A DNA stretch of 20,423 bases. Origin: a virus. Numbering within the stretch: the first letter of the stretch is position 1; each line of letters begins with the position of its first letter. Below, piece by piece: positions 15,029 to 19,042 of this stretch. The DNA lies in the IMG/VR virus record IMGVR_UViG_3300024475_000010, positions 1 to 20,423 of that record; one strand, given 5' to 3'. Both the position numbers and the translations under genes were made by a program. Under the pieces are notes generated by a model that had not been told where the DNA came from, ran no database searches, and saw nothing but the letters and a program-made list of their open reading frames with translations.

Positions 15029-15568
15029 ATGGCTCAAAAGGCTCTACTTCTAGCAATACTAATTGCCTGCCTAAGCGCAATGATTGCGCAAGCGTCAGAT
15101 CCTATTAAGACTGAGTCTGTATCCACGGTCACCACTAATGGCGACATGACCACAACGGTGAAGTCTCCACCGCCATCAGCAATATCTCCGCAAATAAGCA
15201 CAGGGTCGACATCCGATTTGTGCACGGTAGGCATTGCTGGCGCCGTTCAAACTCAAATACTCGGCATCTCTGCCGGCACAACCGTCCGCGATGAAAACTG
15301 CGAAAAGCTGAAAAACGCCAAGGTTCTGTACGACATGGGCATGAAAGTGGCGGCTGTCAGCGTCATGTGCCAAGACCAGAGGGTGTTCGATGCGATGATG
15401 AACGCGGGAACGCCATGTCCATATGATGGCCTTATTGGCGAGGAAGCTAAGGCGGCTTGGCAGGCCGATCAAGCGTCAAAGCCAGAGGAGGAAGAAAAGG
15501 ATGAAACCAAGAAGCGCGTTGGCGTTGGTGCCGTTGTTAGCGCTCTATCCTTCCTGCTCATATTCTGA
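15029..15568 (+). CDS. Exported Cys-rich protein with signal peptide and C-terminal hydrophobic segment
   Basis: 179 residues from ATG 15029; in-frame TTG 15017 and GTG 15020 exist but none of the three has a good ribosome site, and ATG places the signal peptide best. Residues 1-22 are a Sec signal (KALLLAILIACLSAMIAQA, cleavage after AQA). The mature part has four Cys (DLC, ENC, VMC, TPC), so two disulphides are possible. Core motif: CTVGIAGAVQTQILGISAGTTVRDENCEKLKNAKVLYDMGMKVAAVSVMCQDQRVFDAMMNAGTPCPYDGLIG, which I have seen only in uncharacterised phage proteins. An acidic/basic linker leads to a terminal hydrophobic run (VGVGAVVSALSFLLIF), possibly a membrane anchor. Function unknown; an envelope location is a fair inference. 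Its 3' end overlaps the next gene by 68 bases. Confidence 0.7.
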   Translation: MAQKALLLAILIACLSAMIAQASDPIKTESVSTVTTNGDMTTTVKSPPPSAISPQISTGSTSDLCTVGIAGAVQTQILGISAGTTVRDENCEKLKNAKVLYDMGMKVAAVSVMCQDQRVFDAMMNAGTPCPYDGLIGEEAKAAWQADQASKPEEEEKDETKKRVGVGAVVSALSFLLIF

Positions 15569-16310
15569 CTTCCTATACGACTACACGGACAATGTAGCGA
15601 TATCGAGTCATGCGTGGGATATGGCCAATGCGATACCTGACACAACAGGCGTTGCAATCAATGGCGTCCTTTACCGGTATACCGTTGATAAAGATCCGGC
15701 AGACGCGATGCTGGTGCATATCCAGAACAAGGATACTCAGGGGCCGGGTTATGTATTCCGTGAGACTGACGATTGGTCCGGCCTACCTAGCTCCACTATC
15801 AAAAAGTTTGTGGCGGTTCCCCTAGTCCCGGCAGATCGCTTTGGCGATGGATCAATTGATATTGATGGTGACGGCCAAGTTCTTGATGCGAGCGTGGTCT
15901 ACACGTACCGCATCGACCCATCTGCAAGGACTCCAAGTCTGCCAGACATCCCCGAGGTCGAGGTGTACAATGCCCTTGAGGATGATGCTGTTGTGGGCTC
16001 GATACAGCCATCTGACGGCGATCTGTATGAAGATGAGGGCAGTGGCAAGGCGGAAGAAGAGGATCGCCTTGAAACGGCTACAGAGGCGTCTGAGATGGCC
16101 ATTGCCCAATCCGAGTTAGCGAGGCTACAGGCGATGGCATTGGCCACTAACATAAACCCGTATTACGCCGTATCAATACAAGGCGGCGTTTACAAAGAAT
16201 CGTTGGTTTTGGTGGACGCTAAGTTGCCCAATAGCAAGCAAGGTCTGCGAAATGGACTGGCACAACAGATATTGCACACCAAGATGGTTGATATGCAGTG
16301 GGAGAGGTAA
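15501..16310 (+). CDS. Probably exported protein with Ca-binding-type loop
   Basis: 269 residues. The frame is open from 15423, but AGGAGGAA at 15485-15492, 8 bases before ATG 15501, sets the start inside the previous gene. MKPRSALALVPLLALYPSCSYSDF looks like a signal peptide; the Cys at 19 is not in a good lipobox. A DIDGDGQVLD loop at residues 120-129 has the DxDxDGxxxD form of calcium-binding loops. Residues ~160-215 are acidic then helical (EEEDRLETATEASEMAIAQSELARLQAMALA). The C-terminus (NPYYAVSIQGGVYKESLVLVDAKLPNSKQGLRNGLAQQILHTKMVDMQW) recurs in uncharacterised phage proteins. Function unknown; the operon position indicates it works with the other exported proteins. Confidence 0.65.
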   Translation: MKPRSALALVPLLALYPSCSYSDFLYDYTDNVAISSHAWDMANAIPDTTGVAINGVLYRYTVDKDPADAMLVHIQNKDTQGPGYVFRETDDWSGLPSSTIKKFVAVPLVPADRFGDGSIDIDGDGQVLDASVVYTYRIDPSARTPSLPDIPEVEVYNALEDDAVVGSIQPSDGDLYEDEGSGKAEEEDRLETATEASEMAIAQSELARLQAMALATNINPYYAVSIQGGVYKESLVLVDAKLPNSKQGLRNGLAQQILHTKMVDMQWER

Positions 16311-16312
16311 AC

Positions 16313-16804
16313 ATGGTTAAGGTTTCTTTGGTCGCATTATTGGTCGCTACGAGCGTCCATGCGGGCGAGTCAGTCATCACCGGCACGGTCCAATCCAAGT
16401 GCGTAATTAACACGGATGTTGCAGGCGTCTACGGCAACCCAATTGCTAACAAGTTATCAACAGCCCCAGCAGATGGCGGTGTTCATCCGATCATTCGATA
16501 CGACGTTTCGCTTGCTGACGCTTATACGGCGCGGATCACTACGCCTGAGAACTTTACTACTAGCCCATCACTAAGCGATACCTTGAGCTGGCTGGGCGCG
16601 GTGTCAGTTAAAGAGGTCAGTGATTCTGCCATGGCTGACTATGAGACTGGCAAGGTTGAGTACAACAGCTCGACGGAGTTTGATCTACATACCGCAGGCA
16701 CGACTTGGTTTGAGGTGACTTCTGCTGTCGAGTACGGCTACAACAAAGCTCTGCCGGCGGGTACTTATCGGGCGGTGGTGCAAGCGGAATGCATCGCAAA
16801 GTAA
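16313..16804 (+). CDS. Exported beta-sandwich protein, pilin/SCPU-like appearance
   Basis: 163 residues. GGAGAGG at 16301-16307, 5 bases before ATG 16313, favours it over GTG 16298. Signal peptide residues 1-17 (MVKVSLVALLVATSVHA, cleavage after VHA). The mature part is nearly all beta strand. One Cys lies in the first strand region (VQSKCVIN) and one at the extreme C-terminus (QAECIAK), so a disulphide could tie the ends together, and the C-terminal strand (GTYRAVVQAECIAK) resembles the GTYSGTVTVTV-type end of spore-coat-U/pilin-like domains. The overall look is that of a chaperone-usher-type or SCPU-like subunit, but similarity is to fold pattern, not a confident family. Its 3' end overlaps the next gene by 16 bases. 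Confidence 0.65.
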   Translation: MVKVSLVALLVATSVHAGESVITGTVQSKCVINTDVAGVYGNPIANKLSTAPADGGVHPIIRYDVSLADAYTARITTPENFTTSPSLSDTLSWLGAVSVKEVSDSAMADYETGKVEYNSSTEFDLHTAGTTWFEVTSAVEYGYNKALPAGTYRAVVQAECIAK

Positions 16805-17166
16805 TCGCACTGGCGCTCATGCTCGGCCTGCAAGCGCAGGCTCATGAGATGGTGCCAACATACCCGCGGCTAATGCCATCACATATAGAAAATGTGGCAA
16901 AGGCCGACATGGCGCTGTTTAACAAGCGCATGGATGTTGAGTTCTACGAGATCGGGGTGTTCGATGGCGAATGGAACGCAATACCCTTTGTCTCGTCTTA
17001 CAAGATCATCCCGGTCGGCTACCTTGAGCAAGTGAAATTTACGGTATACGTCAGCGAAGACAATAGACGAAAAGCGCAGTACGTTTGCTCAGTATCCAAG
17101 CTCAGATCCAACAAGACGGTAGGCACTTTGGTGTCATCAAAGATATGCTCAAAGTTCAAGCAGTAG
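16789..17166 (+). CDS. Small exported protein, beta-rich, one likely disulphide
   Basis: 125 residues; the ATG lies 16 bases inside the previous gene and has only a weak ribosome site, so coupling is likely. Residues 1-18 are a signal peptide (KVIALALMLGLQAQA, cleavage after AQA). The mature part: EMVPTYPRLMPSHIENVAKADMALFNKRMDVEFYEIGVFDGEWNAIPFVSSYKIIPVGYLEQVKFTVYVSEDNRRKAQYVCSVSKLRS...SSKICSKFKQ. This reads like one Ig-type beta-sandwich (the N-terminal domain of pilus chaperones has a similar run of strands: FNKRMDVEFYEIGVFD, YKIIPVGYLEQVKFTVYV), with Cys in the two late strands. A chaperone-like or subunit role next to the previous gene is a guess. No named family is assigned. Confidence 0.62.
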   Translation: MHRKVIALALMLGLQAQAHEMVPTYPRLMPSHIENVAKADMALFNKRMDVEFYEIGVFDGEWNAIPFVSSYKIIPVGYLEQVKFTVYVSEDNRRKAQYVCSVSKLRSNKTVGTLVSSKICSKFKQ

Positions 17167-17558
17167 CGCTCGCTTTGTGTTCGGCGGTGGCCTTGGCCGA
17201 CAGCAGTTCGCTGAATTTGCAGATGCCGAATGGCGCAAGCAATCACCAGTCTGACAAGTTCAGGGCCGGCGACTTAGATTGCAGTAATGCTATCGGCGGC
17301 GGGACTAACTTAGAGTTTGGCGTGACCGGCATCATCAACAATGCTACCGGGCCGTTCGAGTCATCCAGCTCAATCAACCCTGAAACCAAAGACATCGGCG
17401 TATACGCTCGAATCATCATGCCGCTAGATGGCCCGAAGGAACGAATCAACTGCAACACGCTGTACCAGCTTGAGCTACAGAAGAAGCGCCTTGAGGTGCA
17501 ACAACTCCGGCAAGAGATAATCAATCTACAGCGCCTCAATAGCGAGTTCGAAAACTGA
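17145..17558 (+). CDS. Exported protein with C-terminal coiled coil
   Basis: 137 residues from ATG 17145, 22 bases inside the previous gene; an earlier in-frame start (17085) would hide the signal peptide and is rejected. Residues 1-18 are a clear signal (MLKVQAVALALCSAVALA). Mature part: SDKFRAGDLDCSNAIGGGTNLEFGVTGIINN...ETKDIGVYARIIMPLDGPKERINCNTLYQLELQKKRLEVQQLRQEIINLQRLNSEFEN. Two beta segments (LEFGVTGII, IGVYARIIMPL) look like a hairpin of an outer-membrane or surface protein; two Cys bracket the domain; the end is a ~35-residue coiled coil. I have seen this arrangement in uncharacterised phage proteins only. Probably periplasmic or outer-membrane associated. Confidence 0.65.
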   Translation: MLKVQAVALALCSAVALADSSSLNLQMPNGASNHQSDKFRAGDLDCSNAIGGGTNLEFGVTGIINNATGPFESSSSINPETKDIGVYARIIMPLDGPKERINCNTLYQLELQKKRLEVQQLRQEIINLQRLNSEFEN

Positions 17559-18016
17559 TGGCAGAAGTTGAATTTGCAGGAATGACATTCAAGGGCGGCA
17601 AGATGATGGTGCTGATTACTGCGCTATCTACTCTTGGCGGCGCATCGTGGGCTGGGTTTGAGTTCTACAAGGACTACATGGACATGAGGGAAGTGGTCCA
17701 GAACATCGACACATCGGCCATTGAGGCTCGGAACGATGTTATCGAAACCCAGTTGCGTGAGGCGATTGATTACACGCGCGACATAAAGGCAGGCTTGCGT
17801 GATGACATCCTACGCATCGAGAAGGTATCTGATCGCACAGAGGATGAAGTACGCGAGCTTGAGGACAAGGTTAGGTCTTTGATTGATGACGCTGAAATCA
17901 GATTTGAGGCCGCACGGGAACGGCTCAGGATGTCGCAAGACGCCGACATCAAAGAGCTGGAAGATAGACTTAACCGGAGGCTTCAGCAGGCGCTGGACAA
18001 TCCACTGGCAAATTAG
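17558..18016 (+). CDS. TM plus long coiled-coil protein (possible inner-membrane spanin-like or virion protein)
   Basis: 152 residues; ATG shares one base with the previous stop (TGATG). Residues ~14-33 (GKMMVLITALSTLGGASWAGFEFY) form a single hydrophobic helix after a short N-terminus (MAEVEFAGMTFKG). Residues ~40-145 are a highly charged heptad-rich coiled coil ending in ALDNPLAN. The start motif EFAGMTFKGGKMMVLITALSTLGGA-WA-FEFYKDY and the end NPLAN recur in aquatic-phage proteins of unknown function. With the N-terminus inside, the coiled coil would lie in the periplasm, as in lambda Rz. No lipoprotein partner is evident, so the spanin idea is weak. Confidence 0.55.
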   Translation: MAEVEFAGMTFKGGKMMVLITALSTLGGASWAGFEFYKDYMDMREVVQNIDTSAIEARNDVIETQLREAIDYTRDIKAGLRDDILRIEKVSDRTEDEVRELEDKVRSLIDDAEIRFEAARERLRMSQDADIKELEDRLNRRLQQALDNPLAN

Positions 18017-18024
18017 GTGAGCAC

Positions 18025-18333
18025 ATGACTGATTTAGAAAAATACGACACTAACGGCAACGGCGTACTCGACCCCGAGGAGCGCGAGATCATGCTAGAGG
18101 ATCGACGCCGAGAGATGGATGACGCAGACGCCAAGCGAGACGCACAGCGACGCATCACGTACCTATCCGCAAGCGGCATTCTGCTATTCCCGTTCTCGGT
18201 TGTTGTGACCGAAGGCATGGGTCTGACTGGAGCCTCTGCGTTGTTGGCTGACATGAGCACGATCTACTACGGGTCAATCTCAGTCATCGTGGCGTCCTAT
18301 TTCGGCTTTTCGAATATGGGTGGTAAGAAATGA
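18025..18333 (+). CDS. EF-hand-containing two-TM membrane protein (holin-like)
   Basis: 102 residues; AGGTGAG at 18015-18021 lies close upstream. Residues 8-19 (DTNGNGVLDPEE) match a canonical EF-hand loop: Asp1, Asn3, Asn5, Gly6, Leu8, Asp9, Glu12. A charged helix follows (EREIMLEDRRREMDDADAKRDAQRRI). Two hydrophobic helices lie at ~44-63 (YLSASGILLFPFSVVVTEG) and ~76-97 (STIYYGSISVIVASYFGFS). Proteins with one EF-hand loop and C-terminal TMs are found beside phage lysis genes and may be holins or antiholins, but I know no characterised member. Calcium binding in the cytoplasm would be unusual. The stop overlaps the next gene by 4 bases. Confidence 0.6.
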   Translation: MTDLEKYDTNGNGVLDPEEREIMLEDRRREMDDADAKRDAQRRITYLSASGILLFPFSVVVTEGMGLTGASALLADMSTIYYGSISVIVASYFGFSNMGGKK

Positions 18334-18665
18334 TCGTATCAGCATTAAGCAACCTTGCTGGGTCATTCCTAGAGGCTAAGACAGCCAAGCAGAAGGCTAA
18401 GGCGGCACTAGAGGAAAAGAAGGTTCAGGGCGACATCGACTGGGAAGTCATGGCGCTAGAGGCCAGCAAGGACTCATGGAAGGATGAGTTATGGACCGTG
18501 GTATTTGTGGCAATCTTGATCGCCAACTTTATCCCGGCGTTACAACCATTCATGCAACAAGGGTTCGCCAACCTAGAGGCCACACCGTTGTGGGTTCAGG
18601 CGGGCATGGGCGCGTCAATCAGCGCGAGTTTTGGTATCAAGATGTTTAAGGGGTTCAAGAAATGA
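18330..18665 (+). CDS. Holin, 3TM GTA-type
   Basis: 111 residues; ATGA overlaps on both sides. Residues ~1-40 are a charged cytoplasmic helix (EAKTAKQKAKAALEEKKVQGDIDWEVMALEASKDSWKDELW), followed by hydrophobic segments at ~53-70 (WTVVFVAILIANFIPALQP) and ~88-103 (VQAGMGASISASFGIKMF). The WDW...SWKDE followed by FIPALQPFMQQGFANLEATPLWVQ pattern belongs to the 3TM holin family described for gene-transfer agents (PF11351). It would form the inner-membrane lesion that releases the endolysin encoded next. Two clear TMs are seen, with the N-terminal ALSNLAGSFLEA possibly the third. Confidence 0.72.
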   Translation: MIVSALSNLAGSFLEAKTAKQKAKAALEEKKVQGDIDWEVMALEASKDSWKDELWTVVFVAILIANFIPALQPFMQQGFANLEATPLWVQAGMGASISASFGIKMFKGFKK

Positions 18666-19042
18666 GCTGGGAATCACCCTACTTTTCACACGAAGAAATG
18701 AAGTGCAAGCACTGCGGCAAGGATGGAATGAACCCTGAGTTCATGGCCAAGCTGACCGAGTTGCGCGAATACTGGGAAAAGCCCATGACGATCACGTCAG
18801 GCTACCGGTGCGAGGAGCACCCCATCGAGGCGCGCAAGTCTAAGCCCGGCGCTCACACATACGGACGCGCTTGCGATGTAGCAGTACGTGGCTCAGAGGC
18901 ACATGATTTCGTCGCGGCGGTGGTCAAGTCTGGCTTGTTCAATCGTATTGGCATTCAGCAGAAGGGTGATGGCCGGTTTATTCACCTAGACAATATGTCC
19001 GACCGTGAGGGCTTCCCTTCACCTTGGATCTATTCCTACTAG
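18662..19042 (+). CDS. Endolysin, M15-family L,D/D,D-peptidase
   Basis: 126 residues; ATGA overlap with the holin. The protein has the M15_3 pattern: SPYFSHEEMKCKHCG at the start, TSGYRCEEH (Ser46, Arg49), GAHTYGRACDVAV (zinc ligands His65 and Asp72) and RFIHLD (His108, third ligand). The fold cleaves the peptide stem of peptidoglycan; T5 endolysin and VanX/VanY are relatives. Length is normal for a single-domain phage enzyme (~120-140). No signal peptide is present, so export depends on the holin. The CxHC start (Cys15, His17, Cys18) could hold an extra structural feature. The catalytic residues look intact. Confidence 0.9.
   Translation: MSWESPYFSHEEMKCKHCGKDGMNPEFMAKLTELREYWEKPMTITSGYRCEEHPIEARKSKPGAHTYGRACDVAVRGSEAHDFVAAVVKSGLFNRIGIQQKGDGRFIHLDNMSDREGFPSPWIYSY

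Follow-up and report, generated by a model that had tools for sequence, protein, structure and literature searches.

The 20,423-nucleotide virus record IMGVR_UViG_3300024475_000010 from IMG/VR (hereafter the window, meaning this whole stretch of DNA) carries, between its capsid and lysis genes, a run of genes for exported proteins of which the first five, here termed G1 to G5, occupy positions 15,029–17,558. Analysis of this run revealed that G1–G5 and a sixth gene, G6, form one conserved unit, a composite of two separable parts, and that none of the six genes belongs to a known family. An earlier, sequence-only reading of the window had described a five-gene cassette, and all five open reading frames (ORFs) that it named are present on the plus strand with the coordinates listed in Table 1. 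However, G5 overlaps G6 by 1 bp, so that the unit extends past G5 and has six members rather than five. The same reading had called the five genes overlapping, which holds for three of their four junctions (68 bp for G1/G2, 16 bp for G3/G4 and 22 bp for G4/G5) but not for G2 and G3, which are separated by 2 bp. Its placement of the run between capsid and lysis genes was correct: genes for the major capsid protein (phrog_1328, 5e-91), the portal (phrog_1216) and virion structural proteins lie upstream, and genes for a holin-like protein and an M15-type endolysin lie downstream.

The evidence for a single unit comes from its relatives in IMG/VR, where homologues of G1, G3 and G5 were found on at least 596, 587 and 574 contigs, respectively. 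In the G1-seeded set of loci, which comprised the best 80 of the at least 596 relatives, each partner was present wherever the contig had room for it (G2 in 66/66 loci, G3 in 60/60, G4 in 56/56, G5 in 54/54 and G6 in 51/51). Searches seeded with G3 and G5 likewise recovered every partner in 100% of the loci with room, the counts running from 50/50 to 69/69 across the three seed genes. These 100% figures describe this lineage, because the loci kept were the best matches to the seeds; phages with G1 and G6 alone, lacking G2–G5, were also found. One order and one strand were seen in all 205 loci that hold at least four of the genes. The expectation that the genes stay together, which a neighbourhood search could have overturned, thus came through it intact, and the complete co-occurrence and fixed order rule out a set of five unrelated accessory genes. 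Spurious ORFs are ruled out by the ~30–75% protein identity across loci. The capsid protein of the window was seen in just 1 of 62 G1-seeded loci, and the capsids of the carriers vary, with phrog_1328 in 3 and an HK97-type protein in 4 of 37 records (one of the HK97 matches falling below the family cut-off). The whole set was present in none of 50,697 phage records, which hold no G2 relative, and a scan of 84,980 species genomes for G2 returned one relative, on a contig of a metagenome-assembled genome that carries all six genes. This contig is binned as Bacteroidetes UBA10340 (L238) and is probably a phage contig; a bacterial origin of the unit was rejected on the ground that the sole relative in these genomes sits there. 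The earlier remark that phages rarely carry such a run therefore holds for cultured phages, but not for marine viral contigs, in which the unit is common (at least 574–596 relatives).

Export of the five proteins was judged by a heuristic based on hydropathy, charge and cleavage site, in which the hydrophobic core is scored as the best 10-residue Kyte–Doolittle mean. Each of G1–G5 has a basic N-region and a core of 2.5–3.4, whereas none of the other 16 window genes tested scores above 1.98. Among 40–55 dereplicated homologues per family, a strong h-region with a basic n-region was found in 82–95%, and an A-x-A-type cleavage site in 89–100% of the homologues of G1, G3, G4 and G5. The case is least strong for G2, which has a conserved S-x-S-type site in place of A-x-A. 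By this heuristic, signal peptides are conserved in all five families, and the run of five exported proteins originally read from the window is confirmed. Searches of Pfam, PHROGs, NCBIfam, PADLOC and PDB sequences returned no informative family for G1–G6. The sole profile matches of the unit are to PHROGs of unknown function (phrog_20531 for G1, 2.6e-15; 37374 for G5), together with weak coiled-coil matches for G6, and G2 has no match in Pfam, PHROG or phage records. DNA-level blastn and a BFVD fold search gave nothing informative, and a literature search for a prior description of the unit found none. The earlier statement that no characterised family could be named for these proteins agrees with these results, and the proposal of a candidate undescribed system is supported. 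Homologue alignments revealed four invariant Cys residues (C65, C91, C114 and C130) and a short, hydrophobic C-terminus in G1, and an invariant N148-P149-L150 in G6.

Table 1. Genes of the unit and its downstream neighbours in the window, and the Vibrio phage genes related to G3–G5
Feature	Coordinates	Strand	Description
G1	15029..15568	+	ATG at 15029; exported protein, 179 aa; core component
G2	15501..16310	+	Exported protein, 269 aa; head with predicted jelly-roll (residues ~25-138), then Glu-rich segment and helix at C-terminus
G3	16313..16804	+	Exported pilin-like beta-sandwich (predicted), 163 aa; donor-strand-like N-terminal tail; invariant C30, C160
G4	16789..17166	+	Small exported protein, 125 aa; mature chain starts HEM-x-P-x-Y-P; C100, C120 invariant
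G5	17145..17558	+	Small exported protein, 137 aa; invariant C46, C103; C-terminus charged, helical
G6	17558..18016	+	Predicted inner-membrane signal-anchor and periplasmic coiled coil, C-terminal NPL; sixth unit member
G7	18025..18333	+	EF-hand-like motif and predicted transmembrane segments; EF-hand matches below Pfam cut-off
G8	18330..18665	+	Holin-like membrane protein; GTA_holin_3TM E 0.055 (weak, below cut-off); phrog_2524 (unknown function) 3e-25
G9	18662..19042	+	M15-type peptidase, endolysin; PF08291 5.4e-15, phrog_894 endolysin 2.6e-28
Vibrio trio			PS14A.1 p0043-p0045, Thalassa gp150-gp152, pVco-14 019-021; annotated hypothetical; order as in window

The first of the two parts, the core, consists of G1 and G6 and lies just upstream of holin and endolysin genes. 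Within 2.2 kb downstream of G6, diverse loci encode endolysins, holins and an EF-hand protein, and the endolysins belong to at least five unrelated Pfam types (GH19, phage lysozyme, GH108, Hydrolase_2 and M15). Among 31 loci anchored on the lysozyme of a carrier, the full unit is present in 4, and 24 have G1, mostly together with G6, without G2–G5. The order in such loci is G1, a gene X, G6, a small transmembrane gene, a gene for a protein with three transmembrane segments and the lysozyme gene, where X encodes an unrelated exported protein of ~280 residues. Cultured phages have a similar layout: the pelagiphages HTVC023P, HTVC033P, HTVC115P, HTVC202P and Mosig encode a homologous G1, an exported protein and a transmembrane/coiled-coil protein, as do the Roseobacter phages CRP-207 and CRP-810. 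The G1 profile matches these clusters with E-values of 6e-44 to 4e-66, the homology covering the central domain, and their transmembrane/coiled-coil protein, which is G6-like by profile or layout, mostly ends in NPL-x. The middle protein of the pelagiphages combines a carbohydrate-binding-like head with a Glu-rich stretch. Unlike the window, these clusters lack G3–G5, and their middle protein shows either no relationship to G2 or a remote one (HTVC115P gp53, E 2e-4). With G1 and G6 flanking differing X genes, these two are thus constant and the middle is exchangeable.

The genes of the cultured clusters are annotated as hypothetical or are misannotated. CRP-207 gp73 (L087:3292-3873) and CRP-810 gp51 (L088:7174-7596) are G6-related proteins with a transmembrane segment, a coiled coil and an NPL end, and their 'lysozyme' label is probably wrong; in phage isolate ctXG6705, a 'transport protein tonB' (L085:6233-7339) fills the middle slot between G1 and the G6-like gene. 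A 'toxin-activating lysine-acyltransferase' gene (L083:11252-11701) lies downstream of the G1 cluster of HTVC115P, and an HlyC-family match also lies downstream of one cassette locus. The EF-hand-like G7 is a frequent, not obligatory, neighbour of the unit, a related ORF being present in 26 of 50 cassette loci with room for it and in 71 of 222 loci overall. Such genes are widespread near lysis genes, and a calcium-responsive role in lysis may be raised as an idea.

The second part, G3–G5, was traced through a weak G5 match to Vibrio phages in which three adjacent genes fit the profiles of G3 (E 1e-6), G4 (1e-3 to 1e-6) and G5 (1e-12 to 1e-13). Profile–profile comparison between the window and Vibrio proteins gave probabilities of 95, 88 and 98% for G3, G4 and G5, respectively. 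G3-like and G4-like genes occur together in 179 records, all of them from Vibrio phages, among them the T5-like Thalassavirus group, and the G1 and G2 profiles gave no match near the trio. In all six Vibrio loci examined, the G5 homologue is followed by a tiny lipoprotein that starts with C-[ST]-x-x-x-x-I-D-T-D-Y and has no counterpart in the window unit; in PS14A.1, a homing-endonuclease-like gene (L407:5360-6034) lies between the two. In Thalassa and 252E42.2, the holin/membrane and endolysin genes lie downstream of the trio. A gene annotated as PagP, for lipid A acylation, lies a few kilobases from the trio in Vibrio phage D82 (L411:10577-11014). The first residue of predicted mature G4 is His in 120 of 120 aligned sequences but not in the Vibrio homologues; a histidine brace was considered for G4 and rejected, since a second invariant His is absent and the Vibrio homologues have no such His.

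Structure prediction places G3 confidently (mean predicted local distance difference test, pLDDT, 91.8) in a fold like that of chaperone-usher pilins. The best folds in the PDB are CfaB (E 1e-3, probability 1.00, template-modelling (TM) score 0.5), the PapG pilin domain, FimF, FimG and CsuA/B, and the matches also include other fibre subunits and generic beta-sandwiches. The N-terminal tail of G3, which is not a strand in the model, reads V20-x-I22-x-G24-x-V26...C30; in 108 homologues G24 and C30 are invariant and positions 22 and 26 are always hydrophobic. A tail with a hydrophobic-Gly-hydrophobic pattern is what is expected of a pilin donor strand. At the level of sequence, profile comparison with the K-12 pilins was marginal, 1 of 60 shuffles reaching the score. 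The mature N-terminus of G5 is an alternating hydrophobic strand, S-L-x-L-x-L-P (L23-x-L25-x-L27-P28), and resembles C-T-I-N-L-Q-I in the Vibrio lipoprotein. The jelly-roll head of G2 is modelled with a pLDDT of ~97 and its helices with low confidence, and the structures matched by Foldseek were jelly-rolls, lectins and knobs of a generic kind, with low TM scores and E 4e-4 at best. A likeness of G4 to PapD-type chaperones, first seen by eye, was not significant when compared with shuffled profiles (11 of 60 shuffles reach the score obtained against the K-12 chaperones), and G4 has no Pfam match. The Vibrio G4 can be aligned with FimC from end to end in a plausible register, yet 5 of 80 shuffles reach its score against the K-12 chaperones. 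The assignment was kept as a lead, and a role of G4 as the chaperone of G3 is not established.

These features invite comparison with three known systems. With chaperone-usher pili (Fim, Pap, CFA/I and Csu), the unit shares the predicted fold of G3, its donor-strand-like tail and the succession of a pilin-like gene and a gene for a small exported protein. It differs from them in having no usher and no significant sequence similarity, and its G4 is a candidate rather than an established PapD-type chaperone. In our hands, no usher (PF00577) scored over the cut-off in 40 carrier records, not all of which are complete, nor in six Vibrio phages with complete genomes, and the E. coli control was positive. 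Curli (type VIII secretion) genes have been reported in pelagiphages and in Melnitz (PMC9599517, PMC9004378); they, too, are several genes for exported proteins carried together by marine phages, and a connection with lysis or the cell surface has been proposed. However, CsgG (PF03783) is absent from the 40 carrier records, controls being positive, and G1–G5 have no similarity to K-12 CsgA, B, C, E or F. A curli or type VIII assignment was rejected on these negatives, the short likeness of G1 to CsgF (AVQTQILG/AIQSQILG) not being conserved; with no usher or CsgG found, the published curli systems are different from the unit. The third comparison is with two-component spanins of the Rz/Rz1 type, a spanin candidate having been recorded in 586 of 677 Gram-negative phages surveyed (PMC6139136). 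G6 shares with them a predicted layout of N-terminal transmembrane segment and periplasmic coiled coil, and a lysis-side position, but the window unit lacks an outer-membrane lipoprotein partner. G6 matches no spanin family in Pfam or PHROGs, and none of the G1–G6 families has a conserved lipobox of the o-spanin type; the LIAC string of the window G1 is absent from its homologues. A point in favour of a part in lysis is that, near GH19 endolysins, lipobox ORFs were found in 0 of 12 carriers vs 18 of 35 non-carriers (p 0.0014, a comparison confounded by relatedness).

It is possible, if somewhat short of probable, that the products of G1–G6 are exported by Sec late in infection and assemble in the envelope into a complex that joins the inner to the outer membrane and cooperates with the lysis genes. 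This reading draws on the constancy of the unit, its conserved signal peptides, the anchored coiled-coil layout and NPL end of G6, the place of the G1-X-G6 core next to varied endolysins and holins, the pilin-like model and tail of G3, and the Vibrio trio with its lipoprotein. Judged from its gene position, the unit would be expressed late, and its products would reach the host periplasm by Sec. G6 would reside in the inner membrane, anchoring the complex or transmitting from there, and G1 and G2 would be periplasmic, with the jelly-roll head of G2 binding envelope glycans. G4 may hold G3 until strand donation, and a partner would then complete G3 with a strand of alternating hydrophobic residues; in the window, the candidate donor is the N-terminus of G5. 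In the Vibrio phages it is the lipoprotein after G5 (C-T-I-N-L-Q-I-D-T-D-Y in pVco-14), through which G3 would be tethered to the outer membrane. The outcome would be an outer membrane destabilised or conditioned at lysis, alongside the action of the adjoining holin and endolysin. Late timing, a lysis function, the donation of a strand to G3 and the part played by G4 are inferred here; the gene facts, the layouts and the predicted fold of G3 are firmer. Put in its most specific form, the proposal is an usher-independent donor-strand machine, used at lysis, in which G3 held by G4 receives its strand from G5 or the lipoprotein and is coupled through G1 and G2 to G6, the middle proteins being swapped according to the host envelope; in this form we regard it as somewhat unlikely.

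Several observations weigh against such a link to lysis. Overlapping genes for an i-/o-spanin-like pair are also present in at least six carrier lineages, which makes a plain spanin substitute unlikely, and an Rz-like spanin is annotated in Thalassa itself; with such genes in these phages, disruption of the outer membrane would not be the task of the module alone. The trio lies amid head-tail genes, not lysis genes, in pVco-14 and K251 g3. The place beside the lysis genes may also be no more than a site at which late accessory genes tend to insert.

Four roles had been listed for the run at the outset, namely alteration of the host envelope, a block to superinfection, a surface structure and an aid to lysis. 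An envelope complex connected with lysis, containing a pilin-like G3, is favoured by the evidence, short of proof of the specific role. Superinfection exclusion or receptor masking, in which the exported proteins would coat or alter the outer membrane and block the adsorption or DNA entry of competitors, seems rather unlikely. Exclusion proteins are typically exported or membrane-bound, as are T5 Llp and P22 SieA, and such a role would fit the export of all the products, the Vibrio arrangement of a trio followed by a probable outer-membrane lipoprotein, and the large fibre- or structural-looking genes that adjoin it. On the other hand, profiles of named anti-phage and exclusion families in PADLOC, Pfam, NCBIfam and PHROGs gave no match for G1–G6, a six-gene system fixed beside an endolysin would be unusual for exclusion, and the G1-X-G6 core tracks lysis genes. 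The fold and tail of G3 and the jelly-roll head of G2 would also suit a surface fibre, in which G3 polymerises by donor-strand exchange on the infected cell and brings about aggregation or capture of further hosts, much as has been proposed for the phage-encoded curli of pelagiphages cited above. With the searches for an usher (carrier records and Vibrio phages) and for CsgG (carrier records) negative, such a fibre would have no known export pore, and G6 would hold some of the complex back in the inner membrane, so that we consider it quite improbable.

A role in lysis timing appears very unlikely. The proteins would then form a periplasmic sensor complex, with the variable middle as sensor and G6 gating the triggering of the holin, as in T4 RI lysis inhibition; the constancy of G1 and G6 around an exchangeable exported middle, directly upstream of membrane and holin-like genes, would agree with this, but no sequence link to RI/RIII or any antiholin family was found in Pfam or PHROGs and the cytoplasmic and transmembrane part of G6 is short. 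It is more improbable still that the products are parts of the virion, their signal-peptide-like N-termini having arisen by chance or serving maturation. Although the unit lies in the late structural region and some Vibrio trios are found amid structural genes, cleavable signal peptides are conserved across five unrelated families, and the invariant paired Cys residues suggest an oxidising periplasm.

The unit described here is abundant in marine viral contigs, where it accompanies unrelated capsids and endolysins, and it stands outside every family library tested. Little is known of how the outer membrane of the host is opened or altered by marine phages. Homologues of the trio in cultured Vibrio phages (such as Thalassa, Ceto, PS14A.1 and pVco-14) make the question testable in laboratory-grown strains. 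If usher-free donor-strand assembly proves true, a mechanism familiar from textbooks would be found in a viral system as well.

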